From Comamonadaceae bacterium 2PF (GTDB lineage Bacteria; Pseudomonadota; Gammaproteobacteria; Burkholderiales; Burkholderiaceae_C): a DNA stretch of 64,000 nt. Below are positions 23,537 to 47,496 of this stretch, one piece after another. Made by a program: the position numbers and the translations under genes. Every line of letters begins with the position of its first letter. Positions within the stretch are counted from its first letter, which is position 1. The stretch spans positions 1 through 64,000 of the forward strand of contig SCMV01000003.1 in assembly GCA_005502875.1 (NCBI GenBank), given 5' to 3'. Below the pieces are notes generated by a model. The model searched no databases and was not told the DNA's origin. It worked only from the letters and a program-made list of their open reading frames with translations.

Positions 23537-24928
23537 ATGCAACGCATGGCAGTCATCACCGGCGACATCGTCCCCCTCAACCGATCCGAACACGGCTACG
23601 CGGCCATCGAAGGCCTGGCCGGCACCATGGTGCAGGCCTACCTGCTGCGTTTCAGTCAGCCGGTGCCCGAAGAGCGCATGCGCAGCACCCTGCGCCAGCT
23701 GGTCACGGCTTATCCCAAGCTGCGCGCGGCGCTGGAGCCGGGCCTGCACCGCTACCACTTCCGCATCCTGCCGGAGGGGCCGCTGATCGATCAGCTGTTC
23801 GAGCTGGCCTACCAGGTCGACCCCCACCTGAACCCCGATGACCCGCGAGCGCTGGAGGCCTGGCACCGCGAGCGCATGCACGAAGTGCTGCCGCTGGAGC
23901 GCGGCCTGGGGCTGCGCGCCCGCTTCGTGCCCCACCCCGAGCGACCGGTGCTGTGTTTCGGCGTGCCCCACATCCTGGGCGACGGCATGACCATGCTGCA
24001 GCTGGTCAAGCAGATCCTGCGCGGCCTCAACGGCCAGCCGCTCGAGCCCATGGCGCTGGAGGCGCCGTCGATGATCGGCTCCATCGCGCCCCTGGACTGG
24101 CGGCAGTGGCCACGCCAGGTGCTGCGCTCGCGCCAGCACAAGCTCGAAGAAGCCCGCCGCCTGGCCAGCCTGAACATCCAGCAGTGGCCCACGCAGCTGG
24201 GCACGCATTTCTCGACCACGGGCCTGCGTCACCACGAGGTGCCCACGCCGGTGGCCGACCTGCGTCGCACCGCGCGCGAGCTGGGCGTGTCGCTCAACAC
24301 CTTCCTGATCGCCGCGCTGGCCCAGACTTTCCTGGATCAGGCGCCGAACGACCCGAAGGCCGCTGCCGTCATCCGCATCTCGGTGAACCTGCGCAAGTAC
24401 TACCCCGAGTCGGCCGGGCACGGGCACCTCTGGGGCAACCACGTGGGCGCCTTCCTGGTCATCGAGCAGGACGCCCGCAAGCCCCTGCGCGAGCGCGTCA
24501 AGTCCATCGACGCCAGCATCAAGGAGGGCCAGGACCGCTACGCCCGCCGCGAGATGTGCTGGACCTACCTGCTCGAAGAGGCGCTGCCCTGGCTGGGCCG
24601 CACGCTGATCGGGCACATCGGGGTGCAGCTCAAGCGCCAGGGCAAGTTCCCCAAGATCAGCTGCCACGCCACCAGCCTGGGCGACGCCAACCACGTCAAC
24701 CTGCCCGATGCGGCGGTGCGCGTGGTGCAGCTCACCCCCACGGTCAACAGCATCTCGCCGTTGCCTGCCTTGGTGGAGATGAATGGCCGTCTGACGATGC
24801 CTACCAGCTGGCAGTTGGGCGAGACGCCCGTGGCGGCGGTCGATGACTTCCATCGGCGCTTCGATGCCACGCTGGCGCGCATGGTGGCTGAGGTGGCGCC
24901 ACAGGCCACGCAGGACGCCGCGGCCTGA
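23537..24928 (+). CDS. Stand-alone condensation-fold acyltransferase (unknown substrate)
   Basis: A 463-residue protein with the layout of the CoA-dependent acyltransferase / condensation superfamily. The N-terminal half has FGVPHILGDGMTM, in which H145 and D149 fit the HxxxDG catalytic motif, the first His of HHxxxDG being Pro. The C-terminal half has a helical ELGVSLNTFLIAALAQTF stretch and a VNLRKYYP...WGNHVGAFLV segment like the second domain of PapA5 and WS/DGAT-type enzymes. No carrier protein or adenylation domain is nearby, so it is not part of an NRPS here. Possible roles are lipid or alcohol acylation. I cannot name the substrate. Confidence 0.65.
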   Translation: MQRMAVITGDIVPLNRSEHGYAAIEGLAGTMVQAYLLRFSQPVPEERMRSTLRQLVTAYPKLRAALEPGLHRYHFRILPEGPLIDQLFELAYQVDPHLNPDDPRALEAWHRERMHEVLPLERGLGLRARFVPHPERPVLCFGVPHILGDGMTMLQLVKQILRGLNGQPLEPMALEAPSMIGSIAPLDWRQWPRQVLRSRQHKLEEARRLASLNIQQWPTQLGTHFSTTGLRHHEVPTPVADLRRTARELGVSLNTFLIAALAQTFLDQAPNDPKAAAVIRISVNLRKYYPESAGHGHLWGNHVGAFLVIEQDARKPLRERVKSIDASIKEGQDRYARREMCWTYLLEEALPWLGRTLIGHIGVQLKRQGKFPKISCHATSLGDANHVNLPDAAVRVVQLTPTVNSISPLPALVEMNGRLTMPTSWQLGETPVAAVDDFHRRFDATLARMVAEVAPQATQDAAA

Positions 24929-26373: not shown

Positions 26374-27954
26374 TCAGCCTGAAACCTTGAACACCGAGAC
26401 GGCCTTGACCAGTTGATGGGCTTGGTGACGCAGGCTTTCGGCGGCCGCAGCGCTTTGCTCGACCAACGCGGCGTTCTGCTGCGTGGTCTGATCCAGTTGC
26501 GAGATGGCGTCACCGACCTGGCGCACGCCGGAGTTCTGCTCCTCGCTGGCCGAGCTGATTTCGTTGACGATCTGCGTGACGCGTTGGATCGACTGCACCA
26601 CTTGTTCGATGGTGGAACCCGCCTGATCGACCTGATTGGAGCCGGCCTGTATTTGTTCCACGCTTGCACCGATCAGCGTTTTGATCTCTTTTGCCGCCGT
26701 GGCCGAGCGTTGCGCCAAGGTGCGCACTTCGTTGGCCACCACCGCAAAGCCTCGTCCCTGCTCGCCAGCGCGCGCCGCTTCGACCGCGGCATTGAGTGCC
26801 AGGATGTTGGTCTGGAATGCGATGCCGTCGATGACCCCGGTGATGTCGCCGATGCGACGAGAGCTGTCATTGATCCCGCGCATGGTGGCGATGACCTGTT
26901 GCACCGCCTCACCGCCTCTGGAGGCCACTTGGCTGGCCTCGCGGGCAAGTTCGTTCGCGTGACGGGCATTCTCAGCGTTCTGGTTGACCGTCGCGCCGAG
27001 TTGGTCCATCGACGCTGCGGTCTGCTGCAGCGCGCTGGCTTGCTGCTCTGTGCGCCCTGACAAGTCGTTGTTGCCTTGAGCGATTTCCACGCTGGCGGTG
27101 GACACCGACTCGGAGCCTTCTCGCACCGAAGAGACCACCGCAGCCAGGCTTTCCTGCATCTGGGCGATGCACGCCATCACGCTGTGCTGATCGCCGGGGC
27201 GCAACACGGGGCGATGGGTCAAGTCGCCGTCGGCCACGCCGCGCAGCAGGCTCGCCACGTTGTGCGGCTCACCGCCAAGATCCCGCATCAGGCTGCGGGA
27301 CATGGCCCACGCCATCAAGCCACTGAGCAGCAGCGAAAGTGTCACGCCAAAGAGCACCCACTTCTGAGACATGGCGTAAGTGGCTGAGGCGTCATCCGCC
27401 GCGTGCTCGCCTTGTTGGAAGTTGTGAGCCGACAGCTTGTCGAGCGCGCTCAAGGTGTCGTCAAAGTTCGATTTGCCTGCGCCCTCGCTGATGTCCTTGC
27501 CATCGGCTTGCTGACCCTTTCGGTCCAGCGCAATCACCCTCGCCGAGGTCTCCACGTAGCTTTTCCATCGTTGATCAAGCGTGGTGCTCAGGGCACCTTG
27601 CTCCTCGCCGGCGATCAGTTGTGTGTGCGCCTCGAGGGAGCGCTCTACGGCAGCGCGAGCCGCCTTGAACTTGTCCTCGTACTCCTCCATGTAGCCCTCA
27701 TCGCTGGCCAGTGTGTGGCGGACCTCGAAATCGCGAGCCTCGAGCATGGCGACACGCGCTCGGGCCAGGTGATCGACCGCAGGCAGCCATCGCTGGGCCA
27801 GTTGCTCGGCGTCACCGTTCATGTGGGACATGGCCCACAGGGAGGATGCGCCGACCGCCAGGGTCAGCGCGAGCGTCACGCCGAACGACAGGGCCAACTT
27901 CAACCCAGTTGACAGGCTGTTGAGTCGACGGGCGACCCAATTGAGAGGGCTCAT
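26374..27954 (-). CDS. Methyl-accepting chemotaxis protein
   Basis: A 526-residue transducer: TM1 (about 18-42), a periplasmic helical-bundle-type domain of about 155 residues, TM2 (about 198-218), a HAMP-like linker and the cytoplasmic hairpin. The signalling tip is [20 protein letters not shown]...[26 protein letters not shown]. It ends [10 protein letters not shown] with no NWETF-type CheR tether. It follows a secreted Cache protein by 33 bases and precedes a small membrane protein, a likely chemosensory operon. The ligand is unknown. The chemotaxis core genes are not in the window. Confidence 0.93.
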
Positions 27955-27987
27955 GAGCAGCTCCTGCGGGCTTGGCGCCCGCTTTGA

Positions 27988-28476
27988 TCACTTCTTGAAA
28001 CCCACGTAGGTCACGCCAATGACGGCGCCGCCAGCGTCCTTCACGGGGTTGTAGCAAGTGTTGTAGGCGGTGCCCAGCACATCGACCTCGCCGCAAAAGG
28101 ACTGTCCTTTGCTCACCGAATCGTAGGCCTTGTTGCGAGCCAATTGCGTGCCGACGCCCCGTTTTCCCTCAGGCGTGAGCACGTTGGTGCTCACGCGCAC
28201 GAATTCATCGCCGCTTTTGACGAACACCGTTGCCGTGGCGCCGGAGGCCTTCTTGATCTCATCGACCACGTCGTAATTGCCGTTGATGCGACGCTTGCCG
28301 AAGAAGATGGCAGGCACCTCCTTGTCGGCGACGGTCGCCGTGCCCTCGACCTTGGGGGCACCCAGCTTGTTCAAGCGGGCATCCAGGTCGGCGATGGTCG
28401 CCTTGGGATCGTTGGCCAGGGCGTGCACCGACGCAAAGGCGAGGGAGCAGGCAAGCAGTGTGGGGACGAAGCGCAT
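27988..28476 (-). CDS. Secreted stand-alone Cache-domain protein
   Basis: A 162-residue exported protein: signal peptide (1-22, ending ASVHALA), a short helix (IADLDARLNKLGAPKVEG) and then a single Cache-type fold. The order is IFFGKRRINGNYDVVDEI, ATVFVKSGDEFVRVSTNV, GKRGVGTQLARNKAYDSV, FCGEVDVLGTAYNTCYNPVKDAGGAVIGVTYVGFKK. Cache_3-Cache_2 sensory domains carry the same order, normally inside receptors. Cysteines in SFCGEV and NTCYNP could form a disulfide. Without TM2 it is free in the periplasm and may bind a ligand and dock on the MCP downstream. ATG 28476 has GGAG about 8 bases before it. Confidence 0.75.
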   Translation of the reverse strand: MRFVPTLLACSLAFASVHALANDPKATIADLDARLNKLGAPKVEGTATVADKEVPAIFFGKRRINGNYDVVDEIKKASGATATVFVKSGDEFVRVSTNVLTPEGKRGVGTQLARNKAYDSVSKGQSFCGEVDVLGTAYNTCYNPVKDAGGAVIGVTYVGFKK

Positions 28477-28569
28477 GGTCGGATCTCCAGTCGAGCGTGA
28501 AGCACGCAACAATGGGAGTTTCGGACGATGTGGAAAGGCCTTGAGGCATGCCTCCCAGCAACGAGCACC

Positions 28570-28595
28570 CGAAGCGTGACAGCCATCACGCTTCG
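28570..28595. other. Perfect 10 bp hairpin between the exporter operon and the Cache gene
   Basis: CGAAGCGTGA (28570-28579) pairs with TCACGCTTCG (28586-28595) over a 6-base loop. A second pair, TGAAGCG ... CGCTTCA, follows within 35 bases. No T-run is present on either strand. It probably marks the 3' end of the exporter operon transcript (rho-dependent or RNase-protected), or is part of the Cache gene promoter region. Confidence 0.45.
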
Positions 28596-28654
28596 AGGCT
28601 GAAGCGGCTCTTCGGGATTCGCTTCAAACGGACGACAACGGTTTTCCCTGCGCC

Positions 28655-29788
28655 TCAGTTCAGGGTGCGCCGGTAGCTCTTGACCGCCAACAGCCCGAAC
28701 ACCAGCCCGGCCAGCATGATCGGCCACAGGTGCGGCCACATGTCGATCAGCGTGAACTCCTTGAGGAACACGCCCCGCGAGCCGCGCACGAAGTAGGTCA
28801 GCGGCAGCCCTTGGGAGATCACCTGCGCCCACTGCGGCATGCCGCTGTAGGGGAACATGAAGCCCGACAGCAGGATGGACGGCAGGAAGTAGAAGAACGA
28901 CAGCTGCATGGCCTGCATCTGCGACATGGCCGCCGTCGAGATCAGGATGCCGACTGACAGCGTGGTGATGCCGTAGGCCAGCAACAGCGCGATCAGTGCC
29001 AGCGGGTCGCCCGTGAGCGGCAACTTGAACAGCAGGAAAGCGATCGCCAGGATGATCGACACCTGCACCACCCCCACCAGGAAGGTCGGGATGATCTTGC
29101 CGATGATCATCTCCCAGGGCTCGGTCGGCGTGACCAGCAGGAACTCCATCGAGCCCTGCTCTTTTTCCTTGGTGATGGACATGGCCGTCATCACCAGCAG
29201 CGACACGTTCAGGATCATGCCCACCAGGCCGGGGATGATGAAGAAGGTCTGCTCGCCCTGTGGGTTGAAGCGGCGCTGCACGCGCACCTCCAGCTTGGGC
29301 TCGCCGGTGAACGTCGCCTCGATGCCGTCCTTGCGGAACAGGTGAGCGGCGGTTTGCCGCGCCACCTCGCCGGTCGAGGTGATGGCGCCGTTGAGCGAGA
29401 CCGGGTCGGTGGCGTCGGCCTCGACCAGGATCTGCGCAGGCAGCCCACGCATCAGGTTGCGCGTGAAGTCCGGAGGGATCTCGACCACGACCGAGGTCTG
29501 CGCCTTGCGCAGCATCTCGCTGGCCTGGTCGGACGTCAGCTGTCGCTGGTCGATCTCGAGGTAGACCGACTGCTGCAGCGCGGCCTTGTACAGCCGCGAG
29601 AACTCGCTCTTGTCGTGGTCGACCACGATGGTCGGGATGTGCCGTGGATCGGGGTTGATCGCGTAGCCGAAGACGATGACGTAGCCGATGGTGACCGACA
29701 GCAGCGACACGAAGGTCATGCGGTCGCGCACCATGTGGATCAGCTCCTTGGTGGCGATGGCGGCGATGCGGTTGAAAGCCTGTAGCAC
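28655..29788 (-). CDS. ABC-2 type exporter permease (YhhJ/YbhR-like)
   Basis: A 377-residue permease: TM1 (about 26-45), a large periplasmic domain (about 50-175) and five C-terminal membrane segments including VGMILNVSLLVMTAMSITKEKEQGSMEFLLVTPTEPWE-type sequence. This is the ABC2_membrane_3 architecture used with an HlyD-like adaptor. The start is GTG 29788, supported by GGAG with a 6-base spacer; no ATG is well placed. Ten bases after the ATPase stop. Last gene of the six-gene operon; presumed to export the product of the GH3/GNAT enzymes. Confidence 0.9.
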   Translation of the reverse strand: MLQAFNRIAAIATKELIHMVRDRMTFVSLLSVTIGYVIVFGYAINPDPRHIPTIVVDHDKSEFSRLYKAALQQSVYLEIDQRQLTSDQASEMLRKAQTSVVVEIPPDFTRNLMRGLPAQILVEADATDPVSLNGAITSTGEVARQTAAHLFRKDGIEATFTGEPKLEVRVQRRFNPQGEQTFFIIPGLVGMILNVSLLVMTAMSITKEKEQGSMEFLLVTPTEPWEMIIGKIIPTFLVGVVQVSIILAIAFLLFKLPLTGDPLALIALLLAYGITTLSVGILISTAAMSQMQAMQLSFFYFLPSILLSGFMFPYSGMPQWAQVISQGLPLTYFVRGSRGVFLKEFTLIDMWPHLWPIMLAGLVFGLLAVKSYRRTLN

Positions 29789-29798
29789 CTGGGGCTCC

Positions 29799-30737
29799 TC
29801 AGAACTGCGTGATGGAACCCTGCTGCTGCAAGGTCAGGTAGAAAAAGACGTCTTCCAGGCCCACGTCGATGTCGACGGGCGTGCCCGCGTGCAGGCCGTG
29901 CTGCGCCAGGTCGTGCACCCAGGAGCCCACGTCTTCGTGCGAGCGGGCCACCACGCGGATGCTGTTGCCCTGCTGCGAGAGCCGCACGATGCGCGGGTCG
30001 TGCGCCAGGTGAGGGTGGCGGAAGACCTCTTGAAGCGGCACCTGCGCGGCCACCAGGGGCGCGTCGGCCAGCACCCGCTCGGGCGCGTCGTCCACCAGCA
30101 GTCGGCCATACAGCACGTAAGCGATGCGGTTCGAGCGCATGGCCTCGTCCATGTAGTGCGTGCTCACCAGCACCGACACGCCGGTCGAGGCGATATCCTG
30201 CAGGATGTCCCAGAAGGCTTCGCGCGCCTTCGGGTCCACGCCGGCGGTGGGCTCGTCGAGCAGCAGGATGCGCGGGCGGTGCGCCATCGCGCAGGCCAGC
30301 GCCAGGCGCTGCTTCCAGCCGCCCGACATGGTGCCCACGCGCTGCTTGTCTCGGCCCTCGTTGTCGAAGGCGAACTGCTTGACCAGCTCGGTGACCCGCC
30401 CGGCCACGTCCTTGATGCCGTAGAGCTTGCAGACGAACTGCAGGTTCTCGCGCACCGTCAGGTCGCGATATAGGCTGAAGTGCTGGGTCATGTAGCCCAG
30501 CAAAGGCTTGATCTTGGGCGCCTGCGTGGCGATGTCGAAGCCCAGGCAGGTGCCGCGCCCGGAGGTCAGCGGCACCAGGCCGCACATCATGCGGATGGCG
30601 GTGGTCTTGCCCGAGCCGTTGGGGCCGAGGAAGCCGTAGAGCTGGCCTTCCTCGATGGTCATGTTGAGCTGGTCGACGACCGTCTTGTCACCAAAGGTCT
30701 TGGTGAGGTCGCGCACCTCGATGATGGACTGGGCCAC
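29799..30737 (-). CDS. ABC exporter ATP-binding protein
   Basis: A 312-residue ATPase: Walker A GPNGSGKT (38-45), Q-loop near QHFSLYRDLTVRENL, signature MSGGWKQRLALACA, Walker B with RILLLDEPTAGVDP, and the switch His in VLVSTHYMDEA. The C-terminal extension of about 80 residues is typical of ATPases paired with ABC-2 permeases. I set the start at GTG 30737 (VAQSIIEVRDL) because AAGGA lies 6 bases before it and family similarity begins there; the frame stays open upstream into the HlyD gene without likeness. Confidence 0.93.
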   Translation of the reverse strand: MAQSIIEVRDLTKTFGDKTVVDQLNMTIEEGQLYGFLGPNGSGKTTAIRMMCGLVPLTSGRGTCLGFDIATQAPKIKPLLGYMTQHFSLYRDLTVRENLQFVCKLYGIKDVAGRVTELVKQFAFDNEGRDKQRVGTMSGGWKQRLALACAMAHRPRILLLDEPTAGVDPKAREAFWDILQDIASTGVSVLVSTHYMDEAMRSNRIAYVLYGRLLVDDAPERVLADAPLVAAQVPLQEVFRHPHLAHDPRIVRLSQQGNSIRVVARSHEDVGSWVHDLAQHGLHAGTPVDIDVGLEDVFFYLTLQQQGSITQF

Positions 30738-30757
30738 GTCGCGTCCTTCGCTTGCGT

Positions 30758-31765
30758 TCAGGAGGCTTTCGCGGCCACGCCGGCCACCTTCACGCCCACG
30801 GGGGTGCCGGGGGGCGCGGTGCAGCCGGCCGGGGTTTCCAGTCGCGCTTCGGTCAGGAAGCTCAGGCGGTCGCGCAGCTCCTGGCTGAACATCATCGGCT
30901 GGGTGTACTCGGGGCGGGCGCTCACGCGCGTGACGCGGGCCGTTGCAGGCTTGTCGCAACCCGAGATCTCGACGGCGACCTGATTGCCCGGCAGGAACTT
31001 CGGGCGCAGGTCGTTGGGCACGAAAAAGCGCACGCGCAGCGAGCCGGTGTGCAGGATGGTCATCGTGGTGCTGCCGGCGGTGGCGAACTCGCCCTGGCGC
31101 ACGTACAGCTCCTGGATCACGCCGGCCACCGGGGCCGTCACCTGCTTTTGCTGCAGCAGCCATTCGACCTGGGCGACGCCGGCCTCGGCCGCCACTGTCT
31201 GGGCTTGCGCTGCGGCCTGCTCGTCGGTGCGCGCGCCTTCCTTGGCCACGCGCAGCGCCGCGCGCGCGTCTTCGACCTGGGCCTCGGCCAGCTGCACGTT
31301 GGTGCGGTCGTTGTCCACCTGCGTCTCGCTCACGAAATTCTTCTTGAGCAGCGACTCGCTCTTTTTCAGGTTGCTTTCGGCTTGAGCCAGCTGCGTCTTG
31401 GCGTAACGCAGTTTGGCGCGCAGGCTCTCGAGTTCGGCCTGGCGGGCGCCCTTGCTCAGGTTCTTGCTTTGCGCCTCGGCCTGTTGCTTGCGGGCCTGGG
31501 CTTCTGCCAGGCGGGCCTGCTCCTGCTGTGACTCCAGCGTGTAGAGCATGTCGCCTGGTTTGACAACCTGGCCTTCTTTGACGCCGAGCTGGGCCATGGT
31601 GCCCGAGACAGGCGAGGCCACGGAGGTGGTGTCCGCCTCGATGTAGCCAGGCAGTTGCAGCTCGGTCTGGCCGTCGAAGCAGCCGCTCAAACCCAAGGCG
31701 AGCAGCGAAACCGCCAGCACGCTGGGGCGCAGGTGGCGTTGGATGGGGGTCGACGGCAACTTCAT
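30758..31765 (-). CDS. HlyD/YbhG-family periplasmic adaptor, lipoprotein
   Basis: A 335-residue membrane fusion protein. The lipobox LSGC puts C29 at the mature N-terminus. Then come a half biotinyl-lipoyl motif (SPVSGTMAQLGVKEGQVVKPGDML), a long alpha-helical hairpin rich in Ala, Gln, Lys and Glu (about 75-190), the second lipoyl half (VTAPVAGVIQELYVRQGEF) and a beta-barrel domain. It bridges the ABC permease to an outer-membrane channel; no TolC-like gene is in the window. Twenty bases before the ATPase. Confidence 0.92.
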   Translation of the reverse strand: MKLPSTPIQRHLRPSVLAVSLLALGLSGCFDGQTELQLPGYIEADTTSVASPVSGTMAQLGVKEGQVVKPGDMLYTLESQQEQARLAEAQARKQQAEAQSKNLSKGARQAELESLRAKLRYAKTQLAQAESNLKKSESLLKKNFVSETQVDNDRTNVQLAEAQVEDARAALRVAKEGARTDEQAAAQAQTVAAEAGVAQVEWLLQQKQVTAPVAGVIQELYVRQGEFATAGSTTMTILHTGSLRVRFFVPNDLRPKFLPGNQVAVEISGCDKPATARVTRVSARPEYTQPMMFSQELRDRLSFLTEARLETPAGCTAPPGTPVGVKVAGVAAKAS

Positions 31766-31804
31766 GTCGAAACTTTCATGTCACTCAGGTTCACAGCCGG
31801 GGCC

Positions 31805-32902
31805 TCACAGGCGGCCCAGCTCCACGTACAGGGGGCGGTTGTCGATGCCGGGGCGCGGATCGTCACCATAGCTCAGCCAGAAGTGGCTGGAGATCAACTT
31901 TTGACGCTTGTAGCCACGCGGCACATCGACCAGCGGATCGCCGTGTGTCACGGCGGTGGCCAGGGCGTCGTACTTCTGGCCTTCGTGCGCCATCACCCAG
32001 TCGATCAGGGCCTGGTAGGTGGCGCCATCGTCACCGGCGATCAGCACGTTGTAGAGCGTCAGGTAGTTCAGCACGCCACCCACGGGCGGCAGCTTGAAGC
32101 CGCCGGCCAGGCTCACGTACAGGTTGTAGATCGGGCGCAGCACCTTGATGGCGGGCTTGAAGCCCATGATGCGCGTTTGCTTGTAGGCCTTCTGGTTCCA
32201 GCCGGCCAGCATGCCGATGATCTCGCCTCCCCTGAGCGCCAGCACGTAGTCGCTGACCTTCAGGCCTGCGTAGTACGGATCGCCCTTGGCCATCTTCTCG
32301 AAGTCGTAGAGCGGGTAGCCATTGCGGCGCGGCGCTTCGCGGTCGAAGAAGGCCTGCATGGCGCTCAGGTCGGCGTTGGTGGCCGCGCGCAGCGTCACGC
32401 CGGCCGGCACGCGTGGCTGGACCTTGCGCACGAAGATGAAGCTGGTCTCGATCGTGTGGCTCACCCAGTAGCGAAACAGCACGTCGTCCTTGACGCGCGA
32501 CGCGGCTTCCAGCGGCGCCGTGTTGTCCTTCATCACGATGCCGTGCATCAGGTCATCGGTGTTGCGGAACTTCTTTTGCTCGGCGAACAGGGCCGAGGCG
32601 ATGCCGCGGCGGCGGTAGAACGGGTCCACGCGCGTGTCACCCGAGTAGTACAGGCGGCGCTTCTTGCCGCTGATGTACATGTCGTGGCCCGAGATGACCG
32701 TCAGGCCCGCGAGCACATCGGGGCGCTCGTCGTCGTCGGCCACGGTCATGATGAACTCGTCGCCGACCACGCGCGAGCCGATGAAGAAGTCCGGCTGGCG
32801 CTGAAAGCACATCTCGGCCGGGCCGGGCATGGTGATCTTCGAGACCAGGTCGTGGATCTTGGGGTTGTCGGCTTCGGTGCCGAGGCGGATGGTGATGGCC
32901 AT
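31805..32902 (-). CDS. GNAT-family N-acyltransferase of the GH3 cluster
   Basis: A 365-residue protein with an N-terminal GNAT domain: SGDTRVDPFYRRRGIASALF (about 87-106) carries the acyl-CoA-binding R/Q-x-x-G-x-A element (RRRGIA, 97-102). A second, degenerate GNAT-like half spans about 165-300. Acyl-group donor and acceptor are unknown. It lies between the GH3 enzyme (27 bases upstream) and the HlyD adaptor (39 bases downstream). It shares the SGDT-x-x-x-P-x-Y segment with the first gene of the operon, suggesting that the two are distant relatives. Confidence 0.78.
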   Translation of the reverse strand: MAITIRLGTEADNPKIHDLVSKITMPGPAEMCFQRQPDFFIGSRVVGDEFIMTVADDDERPDVLAGLTVISGHDMYISGKKRRLYYSGDTRVDPFYRRRGIASALFAEQKKFRNTDDLMHGIVMKDNTAPLEAASRVKDDVLFRYWVSHTIETSFIFVRKVQPRVPAGVTLRAATNADLSAMQAFFDREAPRRNGYPLYDFEKMAKGDPYYAGLKVSDYVLALRGGEIIGMLAGWNQKAYKQTRIMGFKPAIKVLRPIYNLYVSLAGGFKLPPVGGVLNYLTLYNVLIAGDDGATYQALIDWVMAHEGQKYDALATAVTHGDPLVDVPRGYKRQKLISSHFWLSYGDDPRPGIDNRPLYVELGRL

Positions 32903-32929
32903 GGTGCTGCTTGTTTTCTTGAAGGGTCT

Positions 32930-34555
32930 TCAGGCGTCCAGCGATTCACGCAGCATCGCGGGCACCGATCCGCGCCAGTGGCGCAGGGGTTCGATCTTGA
33001 TGTTGCCTTCGATCATGCCGCGTTCGCGGCACTGGTCCATGTAGATCTGGCGCATGTGTGGCAGGGCCACGCAGGCTGCGTGCTGAAGCTGGCCCAACTC
33101 GCGCGCCAGCTTGTAGTGGAAATTGGCCTGCAGGGCTTTTTCAACCTGCGCTGCCAGGTCACTTTGCAGGGCCTGACGCGGCGCGCGCTCGTCGCATTCC
33201 ACGAGCAGCACATAGCCGGGGGTGCGACCACGCGCTTCGTCCAGCGCCAGCAGGGTCACCGGCAATGCGCCCGACAACGACAAGCCATCCTGCACGGCCT
33301 GTGCCGTGGTGGCGCTGGTCTTCTCGCCGACCAGGTCGACGCCATCGTTGCGGCCCAGGAAGGTCAGGCAGGGCACCTGGCCCAGGCTGCCTTCGACGCG
33401 CAGCACATCGCTCATCTGGTAGCGCGCGAAGCCGCTGCCGGTGGTCATCACGGGGATGACCTCCTGGCCTTCGCGCAGCTGCCAGGCGGCCAGCGTCTGG
33501 CCATCGTTGGCGTCAACGAACTCGTAGAAATGGCTCAGGTAGGACAGCGGGTAGCGCCCCTGGAAGGGAAAGGTCACCACGCCTTCGGTGGCCCACAGGC
33601 CCTTGCCCTGGAAGTTGGCGTGCGGCAGGAAGCCGTGCAGCTTGCGCGCCCAAGGCGTGGCCGCGGCCGTGTCCCAGGCGCTGACCACGGCCAGGCTGGG
33701 CCACAGTGCCTTGAAGAAGGCCGGGTCCATGCGGCCGTCCCAGCTGCGCAACAGGCTGGCGGTGCGCTGTGAACGCGGGCACGGCACGCCGGCCATCGAC
33801 GCGGTGCGGCGGCCCCAGTTGCCTTGCGCCAGCACCTGCGACAGCTCTTCGCGCCAGTGCGACATCTGCTCGAGCAAGCCCAGACCGAAGGTCGGGCTCC
33901 ACACCGAGATGAAGCCCAGCGCGTCGTCGGCTGCGAGGTAGGCGATGGTGGCAAACAACGAGTCGTCCGACGACTGCGCCAGCGCGATCTCTTGCGGCGC
34001 CGCTTGCGTCAGGTACGCGAGCAGGCGCTTGCCGAACGACAGCATCTTCATGTCGTCGTTGATGTCGCCGGCGGTCTGGCTGCGCATCTCGGTCGGGATC
34101 CACGACAGCGACCAGTAATGCGTGCCGCGCCCCTGCTGCGGAAACTGCCGATACAGGTCGCCCACCCAGGCCGTGATGACCTGGTCGAGCTCGTCGAGGA
34201 ACATCTTCGTGTACGGGACCCACTTGACCGCAGAGGTCGAACCGCTGGTCGGCTGGTAGCGCATCACCGGCGAGTCGATCAGCAGCGACTGCTTGCGCGC
34301 GCGTTGCTGAGCGATCACCTCGGCGTGATCCTGGTAGGTGCTCAGCGGCAGCTGGCGCGAGAACTCTTCCCACGACCAGTCCGCGCGTATGCCACGGCGC
34401 TGCCCCTCAGGCGAGCGGGCCACAGCGGACAACCAACGACTCAACCTGGCGCGCTGGACCGATTCCAGTTCACCGAGGTGCCGTTCGAAACGCTGGCGCC
34501 CCGGGGCGACCAGCAGGCGGAGGAGGTGGTGTCCGAGGGTGGTGCCGGCCCCCAT
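32930..34555 (-). CDS. GH3-family acyl-adenylating / acyl-amide synthetase
   Basis: A 541-residue member of the GH3 branch of the adenylate-forming superfamily, whose plant members join amino acids to jasmonate or auxin. The three ATP/AMP motifs are recognisable: TSGSTSAVK (103-111), ATEG (322-325) in place of the Y-x-x-SE motif, and FARYQMSDV (376-384) for the YRxGDV motif; GRNDGVDLVGEK follows at 401-412. Bacterial members are poorly characterised. Its ATG overlaps the stop of the preceding acyltransferase gene (TGATG), so the two are made together. The acid substrate and the amine are not known. Confidence 0.85.
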   Translation of the reverse strand: MGAGTTLGHHLLRLLVAPGRQRFERHLGELESVQRARLSRWLSAVARSPEGQRRGIRADWSWEEFSRQLPLSTYQDHAEVIAQQRARKQSLLIDSPVMRYQPTSGSTSAVKWVPYTKMFLDELDQVITAWVGDLYRQFPQQGRGTHYWSLSWIPTEMRSQTAGDINDDMKMLSFGKRLLAYLTQAAPQEIALAQSSDDSLFATIAYLAADDALGFISVWSPTFGLGLLEQMSHWREELSQVLAQGNWGRRTASMAGVPCPRSQRTASLLRSWDGRMDPAFFKALWPSLAVVSAWDTAAATPWARKLHGFLPHANFQGKGLWATEGVVTFPFQGRYPLSYLSHFYEFVDANDGQTLAAWQLREGQEVIPVMTTGSGFARYQMSDVLRVEGSLGQVPCLTFLGRNDGVDLVGEKTSATTAQAVQDGLSLSGALPVTLLALDEARGRTPGYVLLVECDERAPRQALQSDLAAQVEKALQANFHYKLARELGQLQHAACVALPHMRQIYMDQCRERGMIEGNIKIEPLRHWRGSVPAMLRESLDA

Positions 34556-35436
34556 CAGGAGGCCTTGGAACGCTCGAGAGCGTCCTGGGCATCGGCATCA
34601 TCCCAAGCAGCCGATTGACGGCGACTGGTCGTGGGCTTGACGTCCAGCTCCTGACCCGGGCGGCTGTGCGTGCCCAGGATGTGCTTCTTGACCCACTTCC
34701 AGGGCACGTCCACGATGGAGCGGAACAGGCTCTCGTAATCGCAAGCGGCCAGGCAGGGCACCTCGTGGCCCTGACGCCAGCCCGGATTGACCTTCTCGAA
34801 GAAGGCGATGTGCTTGTTGGCGGCCTTGAGTTCGGGCGTGATGCCAGCCACGTCGCCTTTGAGGCGCACGTAGTCGTTGCCGAAGTCCAGCACCATGTTT
34901 TCGCGGTCGAAGGCTTCGGGGAACAGGGCGTCGCAATACGCTTCGGTGATGCGGCGATAGCGCTCGTCCATGCCAGGGCGATTGCCGCCGACCTTGGGGT
35001 AGTAGTTGTAGAAGTTGTTCGTCATCAACAGGTACGTCTTGTAGCCCTTGGAGATGAGGAACCAGTAGAACGGCACGAAGGGGCGCTTGATGCGCTCGAT
35101 GACCAGGCGGCGGTAGAAGGTGTTGGCCAGCGCGTTGTTGCCCCAGTACGCCGGCTCGATGATGGTGTCGCCGCTGAAGATGCCGCGCAGGCGCTTGCCA
35201 TCGACCTTGATGTCGAAGAAGGTCTGGGTGGAAAAGCCCACCACCTTGTCGTCGGCCTTGCGGGTGACCAGGATCACGCCGGACTTCTTGCTCAGGTCGT
35301 TGAGGAAGATGTCGAGCGAGGTGTTCTCGTAAAACGACGAATACAGCTCGTACATCTGCTTGATGTGCGTGACCGTGATCGCCTGGATCGGGCGAAAGAA
35401 GGTGCTGACTTTTTCTTTCCTGGCCGTGGTGGACAT
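34555..35436 (-). CDS. GNAT-like protein, first gene of the GH3/ABC-exporter operon
   Basis: A 293-residue protein that I cannot assign to a named family. Residues 50-115 resemble a GNAT core (SGVILVTRKADDKVVGFS strands, then GIFSGDTIIEPAYWGNNALA, 86-104, in the place of the acyl-CoA loop, but with WGNNA instead of R-x-x-G-x-A). The middle is aromatic-rich (PFVPFYWFLISKGYKTYLL, NNFYNYYP). The C-terminal 45 residues are charged and probably disordered. It starts the operon, has GGAG 7 bases before the ATG and overlaps the GH3 gene by one base. A transfer or N-acyl synthase role is inference. Confidence 0.65.
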   Translation of the reverse strand: MSTTARKEKVSTFFRPIQAITVTHIKQMYELYSSFYENTSLDIFLNDLSKKSGVILVTRKADDKVVGFSTQTFFDIKVDGKRLRGIFSGDTIIEPAYWGNNALANTFYRRLVIERIKRPFVPFYWFLISKGYKTYLLMTNNFYNYYPKVGGNRPGMDERYRRITEAYCDALFPEAFDRENMVLDFGNDYVRLKGDVAGITPELKAANKHIAFFEKVNPGWRQGHEVPCLAACDYESLFRSIVDVPWKWVKKHILGTHSRPGQELDVKPTTSRRQSAAWDDADAQDALERSKAS

Positions 35437-35517
35437 GCTGAGGCTCCATCGAAGCGCGTGGCTTCTGCGATCGAGCGCCGGGCCGGTGGGCTGGGCGTCG
35501 ACTTTGACTGCTGTTTT

Positions 35518-35533
35518 GTAACGCGTTCGTTAC
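35518..35533. promoter_or_regulatory. Operator-like inverted repeat upstream of the GH3/exporter operon
   Basis: GTAACG-CGTT-CGTTAC (35518-35533) is a perfect 6+6 inverted repeat, 82 bases before the ATG at 35436. The heptamer ACGCGTT also occurs twice in direct orientation (35521-35527, 35532-35538). Such spacing suits a TetR- or MarR-type regulator, common for exporter operons. No regulator gene is adjacent, and I found no confident -10/-35 pair for the minus strand. Confidence 0.5.
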
Positions 35534-35806
35534 GCGTTGACGTTGAAGTCAGGATGCGCCGCACCCCTTTGAGCGCACACCGGGCTTGCCCTCGGTGAAC
35601 ACTTATATGAGGGGTGTGTAATGCCTTCGATTAGTAAGAAGGGGTAGGGGGGTGTCCTCAGGGTTTTGGAGTGGAGGGGGCAAAAGGCGTGCGTTTCGGG
35701 GTGTGCGGGCGACTCGCTGTTTGAAATGCGCGATCGGCGCCCGTTCGGTGGCCGGGCTCGGCGGCCCGTGAACCCCCCGTTTGCGCCGAACTGCACAAGG
35801 GGGGCT

Positions 35807-35834
35807 TGGTCTGTCTCTCAGTCCTGCGTATAAT
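35807..35834 (+). promoter_or_regulatory. Promoter of the ATP synthase operon
   Basis: -35 TTGGTC (35807-35812), a 16-base spacer and a perfect -10 TATAAT (35829-35834). Transcription would start near 35841, about 35 bases before atpI. Confidence 0.75.
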
Positions 35835-35876
35835 CTTTAGGTTTTGCCGACGCCGTGGTGGCGTTTGAATCCGGTG

Positions 35877-36416
35877 ATGTCAATGAGTGGTTCCCACACG
35901 CAGCCGTCTGGTGGCTCAGCACAGAGCGCCAAGCAGGCAGAGGCGAGGGGTGCTTCATTCGAAGACAGCGATCTGGACGAGGACGCCCTGCCGCCGGTCA
36001 GCCCGCTGACGCGAGAAGAGGCGCAAGCCCTGCTCGCCCGGCAGCCCTCCTTCTCTGTCTGGCAGGCCTTGGCCTCGCAAGCGGTGGTCGGGTTGCTGGT
36101 CGCGCTGACCTGGGGGGCGCTGGCCGCAAGTCAGGCTGCTTTGCTGTCCGCGCTGTATGGCGCGGTGGTGGTGGTCGTGCCGAATGCGCTGATGGCGCGC
36201 GGCGTCTTCGGTCGGCGAGCGGGGCGCAGTGTCGGGGGGCTTCTCGTGTGGGAGATCCTCAAGCTGTGTCTGTCCGGGGCCTTGCTGGTCCTGGCGCCGG
36301 TGGTGCTGAGCCCGATCGACTGGGCGGCGCTGCTGGTCACCATGGTGTTGTGCTTGAAATCAATTGCCGTGGCGCTGTTCATCCAACAGCGTCGCACCAA
36401 GAATAGAAACGTTTGA
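35877..36416 (+). CDS. atpI: ATP synthase subunit I
   Basis: A 179-residue membrane protein at the head of the atp operon; AtpI assists assembly of the c-ring. A hydrophilic N-terminus of about 55 residues (Ser/Gln/Asp/Glu-rich) precedes four membrane segments: VWQALASQAVVGLLVALTWG, a second around ALLSALYGAVVVVVPNAL, then VGGLLVWEILKLCLSGALLV and WAALLVTMVLCLKSIAVALF. The start is uncertain: ATG 35877 and ATG 35883 are in frame and neither has a strong ribosome site. Confidence 0.85.
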   Translation: MSMSGSHTQPSGGSAQSAKQAEARGASFEDSDLDEDALPPVSPLTREEAQALLARQPSFSVWQALASQAVVGLLVALTWGALAASQAALLSALYGAVVVVVPNALMARGVFGRRAGRSVGGLLVWEILKLCLSGALLVLAPVVLSPIDWAALLVTMVLCLKSIAVALFIQQRRTKNRNV

Positions 36417-36428
36417 CGAGAGTCGCCC

Positions 36429-37638
<1,210 letters not shown>

Positions 37639-43416: not shown

Positions 43417-44280
43417 ATGTCTCGCGCCACGCACCTGTTCGCAACCACTGTGTTCGCTTTCCTGGCGAACGCTGCCAACGCCGCACCCGAACAACTCGTC
43501 ATCGAGCGCGGCATGGACCGCACCGTTTACGCCGCTGGCTTGGGCTGGAGCGACCTGGCGGGTGCTGCCACCTACGAGGCTTCTGCCAACGTCGTCACAG
43601 CGGTGAACGTGATCTCGGTGGTGGGCAGTCCATATCCTGCGAGTTTGCAGGCGGTTTCCCCTGCGGTGCTGGAGGCTCCCATTGCGATCAGCGCCTCTGG
43701 CAGGGGCCGGTACGCGAGCCTGGCATCCGTCGCACCATTGACCCAGTTGAGCGTCGTGCAGGAGGGCGATCAGCTGACGGTGCAGAGCCTGCAATCAGCA
43801 GGTGGCTTTCAGGTCACGACCACCAAGAACGGTGCCACGAATGGCTCGGGCTCGTTGAGCATCAGCGACCTCAAGGTCGATCTGCAGACGAAAACCATCT
43901 ATGCAGACATCGTCGGCGCCAATGGCGTGGGGGTGCTGAACGACCACGCACTGTGGACCTATGACAGTGTTGCCGGCCCCGTCACGTTCAAGCCGGGTTT
44001 TGACAAGCCTTTCGACGCGACCCTTTCGCCACCAGCGCTCACGTTTTCCGGCCTTTTCCTGGCCAAAGCTTCAGACATCGACGACATCTTTGTCCCGGCC
44101 CTCAATCTCAACAACATCGGGCGAGTGACGTTCACGACTGCGAACAATCGCAGTGCCACCAACCCTCTCGGCTTTGGCTCGATCACCATCAGCGCCGTGC
44201 CGGAACCGGGTGCGTGGGCCTCGATGGTTGCAGGCATGGCCGCTCTGTTGGTGTTGGGCCGACGTGGCGCCAAGCGCTGA
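43417..44280 (+). CDS. PEP-CTERM exported protein, tandem array copy 1
   Basis: A 287-residue protein: signal peptide (1-22), family core and PEP-CTERM tail (VPEPGAWASMVAGMAALLVLGRR). Core marks shared by the array are SGSLSISDLKVDLQTKTIYAD, NGVGVLNDHALWTYD and a SGLFLAKASDIDDIFVPALN block ending in TNPLGFGSITIS. The core looks like a beta-strand protein. Function unknown; I do not match it to a named family. Ribosome site GGAGGG precedes the ATG. The exosortase that would process it is outside the window. Confidence 0.85.
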   Translation: MSRATHLFATTVFAFLANAANAAPEQLVIERGMDRTVYAAGLGWSDLAGAATYEASANVVTAVNVISVVGSPYPASLQAVSPAVLEAPIAISASGRGRYASLASVAPLTQLSVVQEGDQLTVQSLQSAGGFQVTTTKNGATNGSGSLSISDLKVDLQTKTIYADIVGANGVGVLNDHALWTYDSVAGPVTFKPGFDKPFDATLSPPALTFSGLFLAKASDIDDIFVPALNLNNIGRVTFTTANNRSATNPLGFGSITISAVPEPGAWASMVAGMAALLVLGRRGAKR

Positions 44281-44489
44281 AGTCCTGGTCGACAGGGGTG
44301 GGCAAGGGTTGCCCCGCCCCCTGAAGTGAGGTGCGCACAGGGTAACGCGCCCGGATGTTGGCGTTTTGCGGGAAGCCCCCATGGCGACCCCTTTGCCTCC
44401 TGAGCCGCTCCCTTTTAGAGTAGTGCCGATTGGTCACCCCCGAAAAAGCGCTCGCCTCGAGCGCCCCATGCACCGCAGAGGAGACACCC

Positions 44490-45341
44490 ATGACATTCAA
44501 CAAGAACCTGATTGCCGCCACCGCTTTGATGGCATTGGCGGGCGTTGCCCAAGCCGTTACCGAGACGGGCACACTCGCCAAAGGCGAGACGATGATCAGC
44601 AATGGCTACGAGTTCAGCGAGTTGTCCGGCAGCGGCACCTTGAGCTTCTCCAAGCTGCTCGTCACCGCCCTGAACCTGGCCTCGGTCGGCATGCAGGCGG
44701 TGCCCGACGCGGTGCTGCAGATCTCGACTTCCACCAACTCGTCGGGTGCCGTCAAGTACGTCACGGCCTCTGCAGCCGCGCCGGTCACGGCCTTGACCAG
44801 CAGCTTCGATGGCGTCACCGCGTCCATCATCGGCGTGGGCACCCACGGTGGCTCGCTCCAGACCACGGTCAAGAACAACGCCACCAACGGTGCGGGCTCG
44901 CTGAGCATCAGCGACCTGCGCGTTGACCTCGCCACCAAGACCATCTACGCCGACATCGACGGCGGCAACGGCGTTGGTTTCAAGGATGACTACGCCCTGT
45001 GGACCTACGAAACGCTCACCGGCCCCACGGTCTTTGACGTTTCGGATGTGGGGCAAATCCCCGTGACCAAGTCGTCGACCAACACGCTGTCTGGCCTGTT
45101 CCTGGTCAACGCCTCCGACATCGACAACATCTTCGTCAAGGCTTTGAACCTCAACAACACGGGTCGCTCCGGCATCAACGCGGTGAACAACCGCACCGCC
45201 ACCAACACCGCTGGTTTTGGTTCGATCACCTCCTCGATCGCCGTGACCGTTGTGGCCGTCCCGGAGCCCAGCACCTACGCCTTGATGGGCGTTGGCCTGG
45301 TGGGCTTGGCGTTGTTCGGCCGCCGCCGCGCTGCTCGCTGA
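44490..45341 (+). CDS. PEP-CTERM exported protein, tandem array copy 2
   Basis: A 283-residue array protein: signal peptide (1-22, GVAQA cleavage), shared core and a canonical tail (VPEPSTYALMGVGLVGLALFGRRR). Very close to copy 3 in two blocks (SGTLSFSKLLVTALNLASVG, and DIDNIFVKALNLNNTGRSG) but different in the middle (SSFDGVTASIIGVGTHGG). ATG 44490 has GAGGAG about 7 bases before it. A terminator follows 50 bases after the stop, so copies 1-2 may form a unit separate from copy 3. Confidence 0.86.
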   Translation: MTFNKNLIAATALMALAGVAQAVTETGTLAKGETMISNGYEFSELSGSGTLSFSKLLVTALNLASVGMQAVPDAVLQISTSTNSSGAVKYVTASAAAPVTALTSSFDGVTASIIGVGTHGGSLQTTVKNNATNGAGSLSISDLRVDLATKTIYADIDGGNGVGFKDDYALWTYETLTGPTVFDVSDVGQIPVTKSSTNTLSGLFLVNASDIDNIFVKALNLNNTGRSGINAVNNRTATNTAGFGSITSSIAVTVVAVPEPSTYALMGVGLVGLALFGRRRAAR

Positions 45342-45391
45342 TTTCGTCGATCGGATTGGCGTGCGGCCTGGCCGCTTGACGCCGACCATGG

Positions 45392-45424
45392 GCCGCTCAC
45401 ATCCGTGAGCGGCTTTTTCTTTTT
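45392..45424 (+). terminator. Rho-independent terminator after array copy 2
   Basis: GCCGCTCAC (45392-45400) and GTGAGCGGC (45405-45413) with loop ATCC, followed by TTTTTCTTTT. Confidence 0.88.
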
Positions 45425-45558
45425 GCCCCACGCGAACAGGGGGCGGGATAGGCCTGCTTCTTAAGACGTGAAGGTTTTCCTAAAGTGAGCAAGCCAGTCA
45501 GGGGCATGCGAGCTTGTCCCTGATCGGTCACAACCAACTCAACCCAGTGGAGAACCCC

Positions 45559-46404
45559 ATGAAACTCAACCGAAGCCTGATCGCTGCCAGCGCCCTCGTC
45601 ATGTTCGCAGGCGCGGCTCAAGCTACAGAAAGCGGCATCCTGACGACGGACTCAGCATTGCTGCTCAATGGGTACGTTTTCGAAAGCCTGGAGGGCAGCG
45701 GCACCCTGAGCTTTTCCAAGCTGCTCGTCACGGCCTTGAACCTCGCATCGGTTGGCATGCAGGCCGTGCCCGACGCCACGCTGCAAATCTCGACCTCGAC
45801 AAACGCTTCGGGTGCCGTCAAGTACGTCAGCGCGAGCGCTGCGGCGCCAGTCACCGCACTGACCCTCTCTGGCGAAGGCAACACGGTGACGGTGCAACGC
45901 GTGGCCACCCAGGGCGGCTCTTTGCAGACCACGGTCAAGAACGCGGCCACCAACGGCAGCGGCTCGCTGAGCATCAGTGACCTGCAGGTCGACCTCACCA
46001 CCAAGACCATTTATGCCGACATCGTGGGGGCCAATGGCGTGGGCACCTTGAACGACTACGCCCTCTGGACGTACGACACCATCTCCGGGCCCACCACCTT
46101 CGAGCTCGATCCTGCTGCCGGCCCGTGGGGGGTTGCGCTGTCGGCCTCCAACACCCTCTCCGGGCTGTTCCTGGTCAAGGCCACAGACATCGACAACATC
46201 TTCGTCAAGGCCTTGAACCTGAACAACACCGGGCGCTCCGGCATCAACGCCGTGAACAACCGCACCGCCACCAACACCGCCGGTTTTGGGTCCATCACCT
46301 CGGTGATCGCCGTCAGCTCGGTGCCGGAGCCCAGCACCTATGCTTTGATGGGCGTTGGCCTGGTGGGGCTGGCGCTGTTCGGCCGTCGTCGCCAAGCGAG
46401 CTGA
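45559..46404 (+). CDS. PEP-CTERM exported protein, tandem array copy 3
   Basis: A 281-residue array protein: signal peptide (1-22), shared core and the tail VPEPSTYALMGVGLVGLALFGRRR, the same as copy 2. The high likeness to copy 2 at both ends indicates a recent duplication or gene conversion, while the middle (LSGEGNTVTVQRVATQGG) and the stretch before SGLFLV differ. ATG 45559 has GGAG 8 bases before it. It has its own leader with a CCTAAAG element 78 bases upstream. Confidence 0.86.
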   Translation: MKLNRSLIAASALVMFAGAAQATESGILTTDSALLLNGYVFESLEGSGTLSFSKLLVTALNLASVGMQAVPDATLQISTSTNASGAVKYVSASAAAPVTALTLSGEGNTVTVQRVATQGGSLQTTVKNAATNGSGSLSISDLQVDLTTKTIYADIVGANGVGTLNDYALWTYDTISGPTTFELDPAAGPWGVALSASNTLSGLFLVKATDIDNIFVKALNLNNTGRSGINAVNNRTATNTAGFGSITSVIAVSSVPEPSTYALMGVGLVGLALFGRRRQAS

Positions 46405-46424
46405 TCGCCTGGCCCGCTCGCGTG

Positions 46425-46446
46425 AGGGGGCTAGCCCCCTTGTTTG
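46425..46446 (+). terminator. Weak hairpin terminator after array copy 3
   Basis: AGGGGG (46425-46430), loop CTAG, CCCCCT (46435-46440), then TGTTTG. The T-run is interrupted, so termination may be partial. Confidence 0.45.
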
Positions 46447-46572
46447 CGGTGTGGCGCGTCATCCGCCCACATGGGCGCACTCGACGTGCCATAAGCTCAA
46501 GCTTGGTCGCGTGTCATCCGCGATCAGCGCGACCGCCATGGTCGCTGTTCCATTCATCCAAGGGAGAACTCG

Positions 46573-47415: not shown

Positions 47416-47496
47416 CTCGCTGCTGAACCGACCGGCGGGTGCGCAGCGGCGTGGGCCGAGGTTCAAATGCCAAAACCAACTCAAAAAAGGGAAGTC

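Follow-up and report, generated by a model that had tools for sequence, protein, structure and literature searches.

What might a bacterium produce with a single run of genes that brings together a GH3-family enzyme, two GNAT-like proteins and a putative exporter? The question is raised by an operon at positions 28655 to 35436 of a 64,000-nucleotide stretch (hereafter the window: positions 1 to 64,000 of contig SCMV01000003.1, assembly GCA_005502875.1), taken from the 4.18-Mb genome of a bacterium of the genus Aquabacterium, the operon GH3 of which shares 98% identity with its counterpart in Aquabacterium parvum B6. A preliminary description of this DNA had listed six tightly packed genes on the minus strand, and their coordinates and spacing are exact: the first gene, here called GNAT1, overlaps the GH3 gene by 1 base, and gaps of 27, 39, 20 and 10 bases separate the latter from the second GNAT-like gene (GNAT2) and each of the following genes for an HlyD-type adaptor, an ATP-binding cassette (ABC) ATPase and a permease.

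Our answer is that GNAT1, GH3 and GNAT2 form a real, strongly co-conserved core; the exporter is tightly linked to it as a module that some genomes go without. As to what these genes do, we give about even chances to the view that they serve to build a small acylated amide by ATP-driven ligation and acyl transfers, and then to export it.

Conservation of the core

Within the genus, GNAT1, GH3 and GNAT2 occur in that order at 25 of 27 related loci that were gathered by GH3 similarity (mostly from Aquabacterium, one from Leptothrix; the short duplicates L001-L009 were left out, the same loci being used at full length), and the other two loci are cut by contig ends. GH3 is present in 39 of 42 genus genomes and in all 31 of those with a completeness of 90% or more and a contamination of 5% or less, a count that includes one genome with only a 33% GH3 relative (G1075) and one with a GH3 fragment at a contig end (G1061). 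Outside the genus GH3 is rare: PF03321 was detected in 9 of 299 genomes of a family sample (8 above the cut-off) and in 12 of 398 genomes of a phylum sample (11 above it), the window's own genome being counted in both.

Beyond the genus, a GNAT1 profile of seven rows, searched without requiring the presence of GH3, found matches in 10 of the 399 genomes of an order sample and in 7 of the 398 of the phylum sample, again with the window's own genome counted. Fifteen of the matching genomes lie outside the genus (9 among 398 for the order and 6 among 397 for the phylum, the window's own left aside). In 14 of these 15 genomes a GH3 gene lies within 10 kb of GNAT1; it was seen in 13 of the 14 GNAT1 flanks of 20 kb that were examined, and in the fifteenth genome (G786) an adjacent GH3 is evident from the coordinates. 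The exception among the flanks, L080 of genome G932, is a weak GNAT1 match with an internal stop and without GH3. GNAT2 accompanies the pair in 7 of the 13 distant GNAT1-GH3 flanks. If the window's own genome is set aside, 397 phylum genomes remain, of which 11 have GH3, 6 have GNAT1 and 5 have the two together (Fisher p 3e-8, weak matches counted); the clustering is therefore not a matter of chance, and the presence of GNAT1 nearly implies that of GH3.

The two genes are, moreover, closely set: at 17 of 23 loci (4 Aquabacterium-type) the nearest in-frame start of GH3 stands -17 to +13 bases from the stop of GNAT1, the remaining six having the two genes either on opposite strands (L069, L070, L072) or separated (L063, L071, L075). 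A plasmid collection contributed 12 records with GNAT1, and three of the four flanks examined (H1, H3, H4, H5) contain GH3, the fourth being without it. A further locus around a below-cut-off GH3 match (L041) had no match to any of 11 query proteins and was dropped.

Quick trees of 23 of the loci with GNAT1 (L065, L066, L080 and most Aquabacterium rows were not included) agree with one another, the Spearman correlation of tree distances being 0.77 for GNAT1 and GH3 over the 23 loci, and 0.62 for GNAT2 and GH3 and 0.64 for GNAT1 and GNAT2 over 17 loci. The window's branch, which unites four Aquabacterium-type rows with L062 from Acinetobacter baumannii, L076 and L077, was recovered in the GH3, GNAT1 and GNAT2 trees alike. 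A single branch with a Shimodaira-Hasegawa-like approximate likelihood ratio test (SH-aLRT) value of 99 splits the 23 GH3s that have GNAT1 nearby from six that do not, in a sample partly gathered through GNAT1, and the Pfam-found GH3 of L037, a locus without GNAT1, falls outside the GH3s of the triad.

Table 1. Genes of the operon and a nearby candidate part, in window coordinates
Feature	Coordinates	Strand	Remarks
GNAT1, atypical GNAT-fold protein, operon gene 1	34555..35436	-	293 aa; fold by model, no GNAT Pfam or NCBIfam family
GH3-family acyl-acid amido synthetase-like enzyme	32930..34555	-	541 aa; PF03321, PF23571, PF23572
GNAT2, tandem (two-domain) GNAT protein	31805..32902	-	365 aa; PF00583 weak, plus model
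HlyD-type periplasmic adaptor, probable lipoprotein	30758..31765	-	335 aa; PF13437, LSGC
ABC exporter ATPase	29799..30737	-	312 aa, GTG start; PF00005, Walker A GPNGSGKT
ABC-2 permease	28655..29788	-	377 aa, GTG start; PF12698
Condensation/PapA-superfamily acyltransferase-like protein, candidate extra part	23537..24928	+	weak PF00668, PF16911; convergent to operon

The exporter and the condensation-like gene

The three proteins first described as an HlyD lipoprotein, an ATPase and a permease have clear Pfam matches (E 1.8e-17 for PF13437, 4.2e-30 for PF00005 and 5.4e-46 for PF12698). The adaptor also matches TIGR01730 above its cut-off, its best NCBIfam model by E-value, the secretion protein HlyD model NF002939 (E 1.6e-40), staying below, and carries the sequence LSGC, which we take to be a lipobox-like motif. 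RbbA models, the best NCBIfam matches by E-value for both the ATPase (E 4.3e-69) and the permease, likewise remain below their cut-offs. The pump thus shares with HlyD and ABC-2 exporters of the RbbA type an adaptor, an ATPase and an ABC-2 permease, here standing in a single gene run, and YbhGFSR is presumably a further type to which it may be likened; it differs from RbbA-type exporters in that its matches lie below the curated cut-offs, in its one permease gene and in its association with GH3. That association is close: the ATPase has an ortholog (at least 71% identity) in 16 of 42 genus genomes, about two fifths, and in 15 of the 16 it lies on the GH3 contig, the sixteenth copy being at a contig end. 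Co-conservation of the operon's genes, on which the preliminary description had made its reading depend, holds for the core, both within and outside the genus, but not for the six-gene set, which is no fixed unit.

Of the 27 related loci, 12 have HlyD after GNAT2 (all three exporter genes at 10, with a contig end cutting the set short at 2), 14 show no exporter gene and a single further locus is not judgeable; given its absence at 14 loci, the core does not need the exporter. All 14 exporter-free loci have, beyond GNAT2 and on the opposite strand, a homologue of the condensation-like protein listed last in Table 1, which stands directly after GNAT2 in 13 of them and, in L017, after Cache and chemotaxis genes. 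This protein has two Pfam matches below the cut-off (PF00668, E 2e-4, 20.6 bits against 30.6; PF16911, E 0.012, 15.5 bits against 30) and a sequence, HILGDG, that we take to be an HxxxDG-like motif. Of the 39 genus genomes with GH3, 29 have the gene no more than 10 kb away from it, more distant extra copies are common in genus genomes, and no homologue was detected at the exporter-bearing loci L023, L029 and L033.

Exporters adjoin the triad in each part of the window's branch, the pump being of the ABC, major facilitator superfamily (MFS) or resistance-nodulation-division (RND) class, in each case with an HlyD-type adaptor. In L062 an HlyD-MFS pair lies upstream, a LuxR-type regulator and an amidase being found beyond it in the same direction, and an outer-membrane efflux protein is within the set; L076 has HlyD-MFS downstream of the triad, and L077 a PapA-like gene, an adaptor and an AcrB-type RND pump, also downstream. 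Orthology of the window's condensation-like protein with this PapA-like gene was considered and rejected (BLASTP E 0.001 over 30 residues). A link between the L062 set and the published EmrAB-like pumps AmfAB and AmfCD of A. baumannii was considered; according to PMC10812440 the operons of these pumps have no outer-membrane gene, in contrast to the L062 set. The records NZ_CP064203.1 (L062, 3.97 Mb) and NZ_CP104448.1 (about 4 Mb) of A. baumannii are entered as plasmids in PLSDB and are probably chromosomes.

It might be argued that the exporter is an unrelated neighbour, that only GNAT1, GH3 and GNAT2, perhaps with the condensation-fold protein, cooperate, and that the product stays in the cell, as the exporter-free loci with their condensation-fold gene mostly next to GNAT2 would suggest. 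The linkage of the pump ATPase to the GH3 contig, the small same-strand gaps in the window and the two other pump families that adjoin the triad in three sister lineages all run counter to this view, which we consider decidedly improbable.

Tailoring genes beside the core in other lineages

A neighbour survey, in which the open reading frames (ORFs) of 27 loci were clustered and chosen representatives searched against Pfam, found a Rieske-type protein cluster in 12 loci (two representatives confirmed) and B12-radical-S-adenosylmethionine (radical-SAM) proteins in four (one representative confirmed). One of the latter is on plasmid NZ_CP134684 of Citrobacter portucalensis (L064, 9977-19842), where the order is GNAT1, GH3, two radical-SAM genes, GNAT2, two further radical-SAM genes and PAP2; the plasmid, of 159 kb and from a gull isolate, carries at least four radical-SAM genes together with the triad, and a 2,928-base piece of the cluster had no DNA match in Escherichia coli genomes. 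Elsewhere, L038 has an Asp/Asn beta-hydroxylase, L038 and L040 have fatty-acid desaturases, and L070 has an AurF-like protein (below the cut-off), a short-chain dehydrogenase/reductase and an amidohydrolase. In L074 (13403-16144), an FG-GAP/ASPIC-UnbV repeat protein with an RnfD-like stretch comes directly after GNAT2, and ORF clustering places one in L067 as well.

The clusters with B12-radical-SAM, Rieske or desaturase genes share with the window's operon homologous GNAT1 and GH3 and often GNAT2, which is not in every such set; they differ in their extra tailoring enzymes, of which the operon has none. Since GNAT1-GH3 elsewhere adjoins HlyD-MFS, RND, B12-radical-SAM, Rieske or desaturase genes, the window's operon would belong to a wider family of apparently biosynthetic clusters, as its small branch with an exporter. 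Tentatively, and with somewhat less than even confidence, we propose that the three enzymes GNAT1, GH3 and GNAT2 lie at the heart of a widespread and so far undescribed family of amide clusters in Pseudomonadota, independent of nonribosomal peptide synthetases (NRPS), in which they would put together an acylated amide scaffold for tailoring by lineage-specific B12-radical-SAM, Rieske, desaturase or AurF-like enzymes, and that the Aquabacterium-Acinetobacter branch makes its product with no such tailoring and exports it through swapped pumps. In agreement with the preliminary description, which recognised no described pathway, neither an identical cluster nor a description of the triad was found among the matches listed in the open-access literature; as most subscription papers lie outside that search, this is no proof of absence.

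The GH3 enzyme and its known relatives

Judged by its sequence, the operon GH3 is a true GH3-family enzyme of the amide-synthetase type, as had been claimed for it: all three GH3 Pfam domains are above the cut-off (PF03321 with E 3.1e-32), and its profile matches, among solved structures, plant GH3s only (JAR1, GH3.5, GH3.6, GH3.12, GH3.15 and others; E 9.8e-29 to 1.2e-19). From these it differs by its divergent motifs, its bacterial operon and the lack of a plant-hormone context. Motif-like stretches are TSGSTS (from residue 103), WATEG (321), GFARYQMSD (375) and a late GNIKIEP (517). The profile regions of motifs I and III align with the plant structures, the window's own copies being divergent, and motif II (WATEG) was placed by eye only, against PMC12493201.

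The statement that bacterial GH3 enzymes are little known needs qualification. OlsH of Singulisphaera acidiphila is, according to PMC12493201, a bacterial GH3 that makes N-acyl-ornithine from fatty acids, and it is the sole characterised bacterial GH3 amide synthetase among the matches listed. The operon GH3 resembles OlsH in being a bacterial GH3-family enzyme from a small operon, in the recognisable positions of the nucleotide-binding motifs and in the chemistry to be expected, ATP-dependent amide formation. It differs, in a comparison made by description, in its partners: OlsH is paired with the alpha/beta-hydrolase OlsI and with OlsG, and the operon GH3 with two GNATs and an exporter (PMC12493201). 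The main text of that paper does not contain the words 'Aquabacterium', 'GNAT' and 'ABC transporter'.

OlsH gives substance to another explanation, that of an aminolipid pathway, in which GH3, like OlsH, would form an N-acyl amino acid, the second fatty chain would come from a GNAT or from the condensation-fold acyltransferase, and the ABC pump would place the resulting ornithine-lipid-like membrane lipid in the outer membrane. A condensation-fold acyltransferase often neighbours the core, and the near genus-wide presence of the core is what might be expected of a membrane lipid gene. On the other hand, Pfam shows no alpha/beta-hydrolase of the OlsI type, which in planctomycetes is coded in the same operon, among the six proteins, and relatives of the core adjoin radical-SAM, Rieske and AurF-like enzymes, a setting suggestive of specialised metabolism. 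The genome also has a separate OlsB-like gene (best NCBIfam match, L-ornithine N-acyltransferase, E 3e-54, 184 bits against a cut-off of 350), and this gene elsewhere in the genome lowers the standing of an ornithine-lipid role for the operon. No paper on ornithine lipids in Aquabacterium came up in a literature search. On balance we hold an aminolipid pathway to be unlikely.

Two GNAT-fold proteins

Structure models bear out, with some refinement, the earlier assignment of two GNAT-like proteins. GNAT1 matched no GNAT family in Pfam or NCBIfam (only TLD, E 0.025, below the cut-off), and its profile had no match in the Protein Data Bank up to E 5. Its model (mean predicted local distance difference test score, pLDDT, 78.6) has as its best Foldseek match the aminoglycoside acetyltransferase AAC(2')-Ia (E 3e-5), and the best 50 of 75 rows (E <= 0.001) are all GNAT-fold enzymes (E 3e-5 to 7e-4), with template-modelling (TM) scores of 0.24-0.62 by target and of only 0.23-0.36 by query, that is, over part of its length. 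SGDT, WG and KG..T are invariant in the seven aligned rows, down to 26% identity; the acyl-CoA loop region, inspected by eye, has the invariant WG and is not of the form Q/RxxGxG/A, which we take to be the canonical GNAT acyl-CoA loop. The model supports GNAT1 as an atypical GNAT-fold protein. A GNAT1 paralogue is present in the window's genome (L066, contig C13, 10119-10901), in surroundings that look housekeeping by eye.

GNAT2 has weak GNAT matches in Pfam (best PF00583, E 1.4e-4, 22.5 bits against a cut-off of 20.7), and its model (pLDDT 68.3), whose best Foldseek match is the tandem GNAT 7q3a (E 2.2e-11), supports its probable identity as a tandem GNAT-fold protein. MshD, Eis2 and N-myristoyltransferase are also among the 50 Foldseek matches listed; with these and with MAB_4324 it shares the layout of two GNAT domains, and it differs from them in its partners and in sequence (8-14% identity among the matches listed). 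The block SGDTxxxPxY, reported as common to the two proteins, is indeed present in both of the window's GNATs, but among the aligned distant relatives SGDT is invariant only in GNAT1 and is missing from the GNAT2s of L038, L039 and L040, so that it is not a private signature of the pair.

A further explanation is that the operon conjugates and expels an acid that is toxic or acts as a signal, such as auxin or an aromatic acid, whereby GH3 would inactivate the acid as an amide, the GNATs would acylate related amines and the pump would remove them, in the manner of auxin conjugation by plant GH3s or of detoxification. The solved relatives of GH3 are plant hormone- or benzoate-conjugating enzymes, the best fold match of GNAT1 is the aminoglycoside enzyme, and pumps of these classes often export drugs. 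Yet there is no catabolic or regulatory gene among the six, the oxygenases and radical-SAM enzymes near distant GNAT1-GH3 sets suggest building rather than removal, and a near genus-wide core would be unusual for a detoxification island; we regard this role as quite unlikely.

A proposed route to a secreted acylated amide

From the gene content, the folds, the co-conservation, the agreeing trees and the exporter linkage we infer a reaction, an order of steps (activation, conjugation and export, much as in the preliminary description), substrates, a product and its export, as follows. GH3 would activate a carboxylic acid with ATP as an acyl-adenylate and join the acid to an amine, and GNAT1 and the two-domain GNAT2 would move acyl groups onto partners of the conjugate, before or after ligation. 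In Aquabacterium, another chain may come from the condensation-fold acyltransferase whose gene lies close by. The product would be exported by the dedicated HlyD-ABC-2 pump in this strain and about two fifths of the genus, and in sister lineages by the HlyD-MFS or RND pumps beside the triad, the pump being whichever one the lineage recruited. Among the clusters of this family the window's would be one of the simple ones, its operon having no tailoring enzyme.

Several observations weigh against such a route. The GNAT1 profile may lean toward GH3-linked members, because three of its seven rows were found through GH3, and the tree correlations reflect in part a shared species history, the pairs not being independent. 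GNAT1 is missing from 6 of the 11 GH3-bearing phylum genomes (the window's own left out) and from 2 of 5 GH3-positive family genomes outside the genus; conversely, an Azospirillum relative with a weaker GNAT1 (L065) and the GNAT1 paralogue of the window's own genome have no GH3 in their 20 kb. GNAT2 went undetected in 6 of the 13 distant flanks and its structure model is only of moderate quality, and to these must be added the loci without an exporter gene.

That related gene sets recur in different clusters speaks for a family of bacterial small molecules that has been little explored. The GNAT1-GH3 marker would offer a search handle for compounds that cluster finders keyed to NRPS and polyketide synthases (PKS) would probably miss, and the six-gene Aquabacterium version is a compact set for expression and testing.

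Surroundings of the operon

No RNA element reached the gathering score in an Rfam scan of 28000-37000, a promoter scan gave no promoter-like site, and terminator-like sites numbered 2, against a mean of 5.7 in shuffles. A defence role was considered and set aside, as PADLOC had no match for the three core proteins, and so was viral spread of GH3, for which 33 viral-contig stretches fit a GH3 pattern and none was confirmed.

The operon is divergent from the ATP synthase genes, of which the I chain lies at 35874-36413 (the remaining ones were recognised by eye). Just downstream of it, at 26374-28512 on the minus strand, are genes for a methyl-accepting chemotaxis protein and a small single-Cache protein, and it is their homologues that come after GNAT2 in the exporter-free locus L017. 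Downstream of the ATP synthase genes, five secreted-type genes stand in a row on the plus strand (43417-48423); the first has a weak match to NCBIfam PEP-CTERM models, and four of the five contain a PEP-CTERM motif (Pfam E 2e-7 to 1.2e-6).

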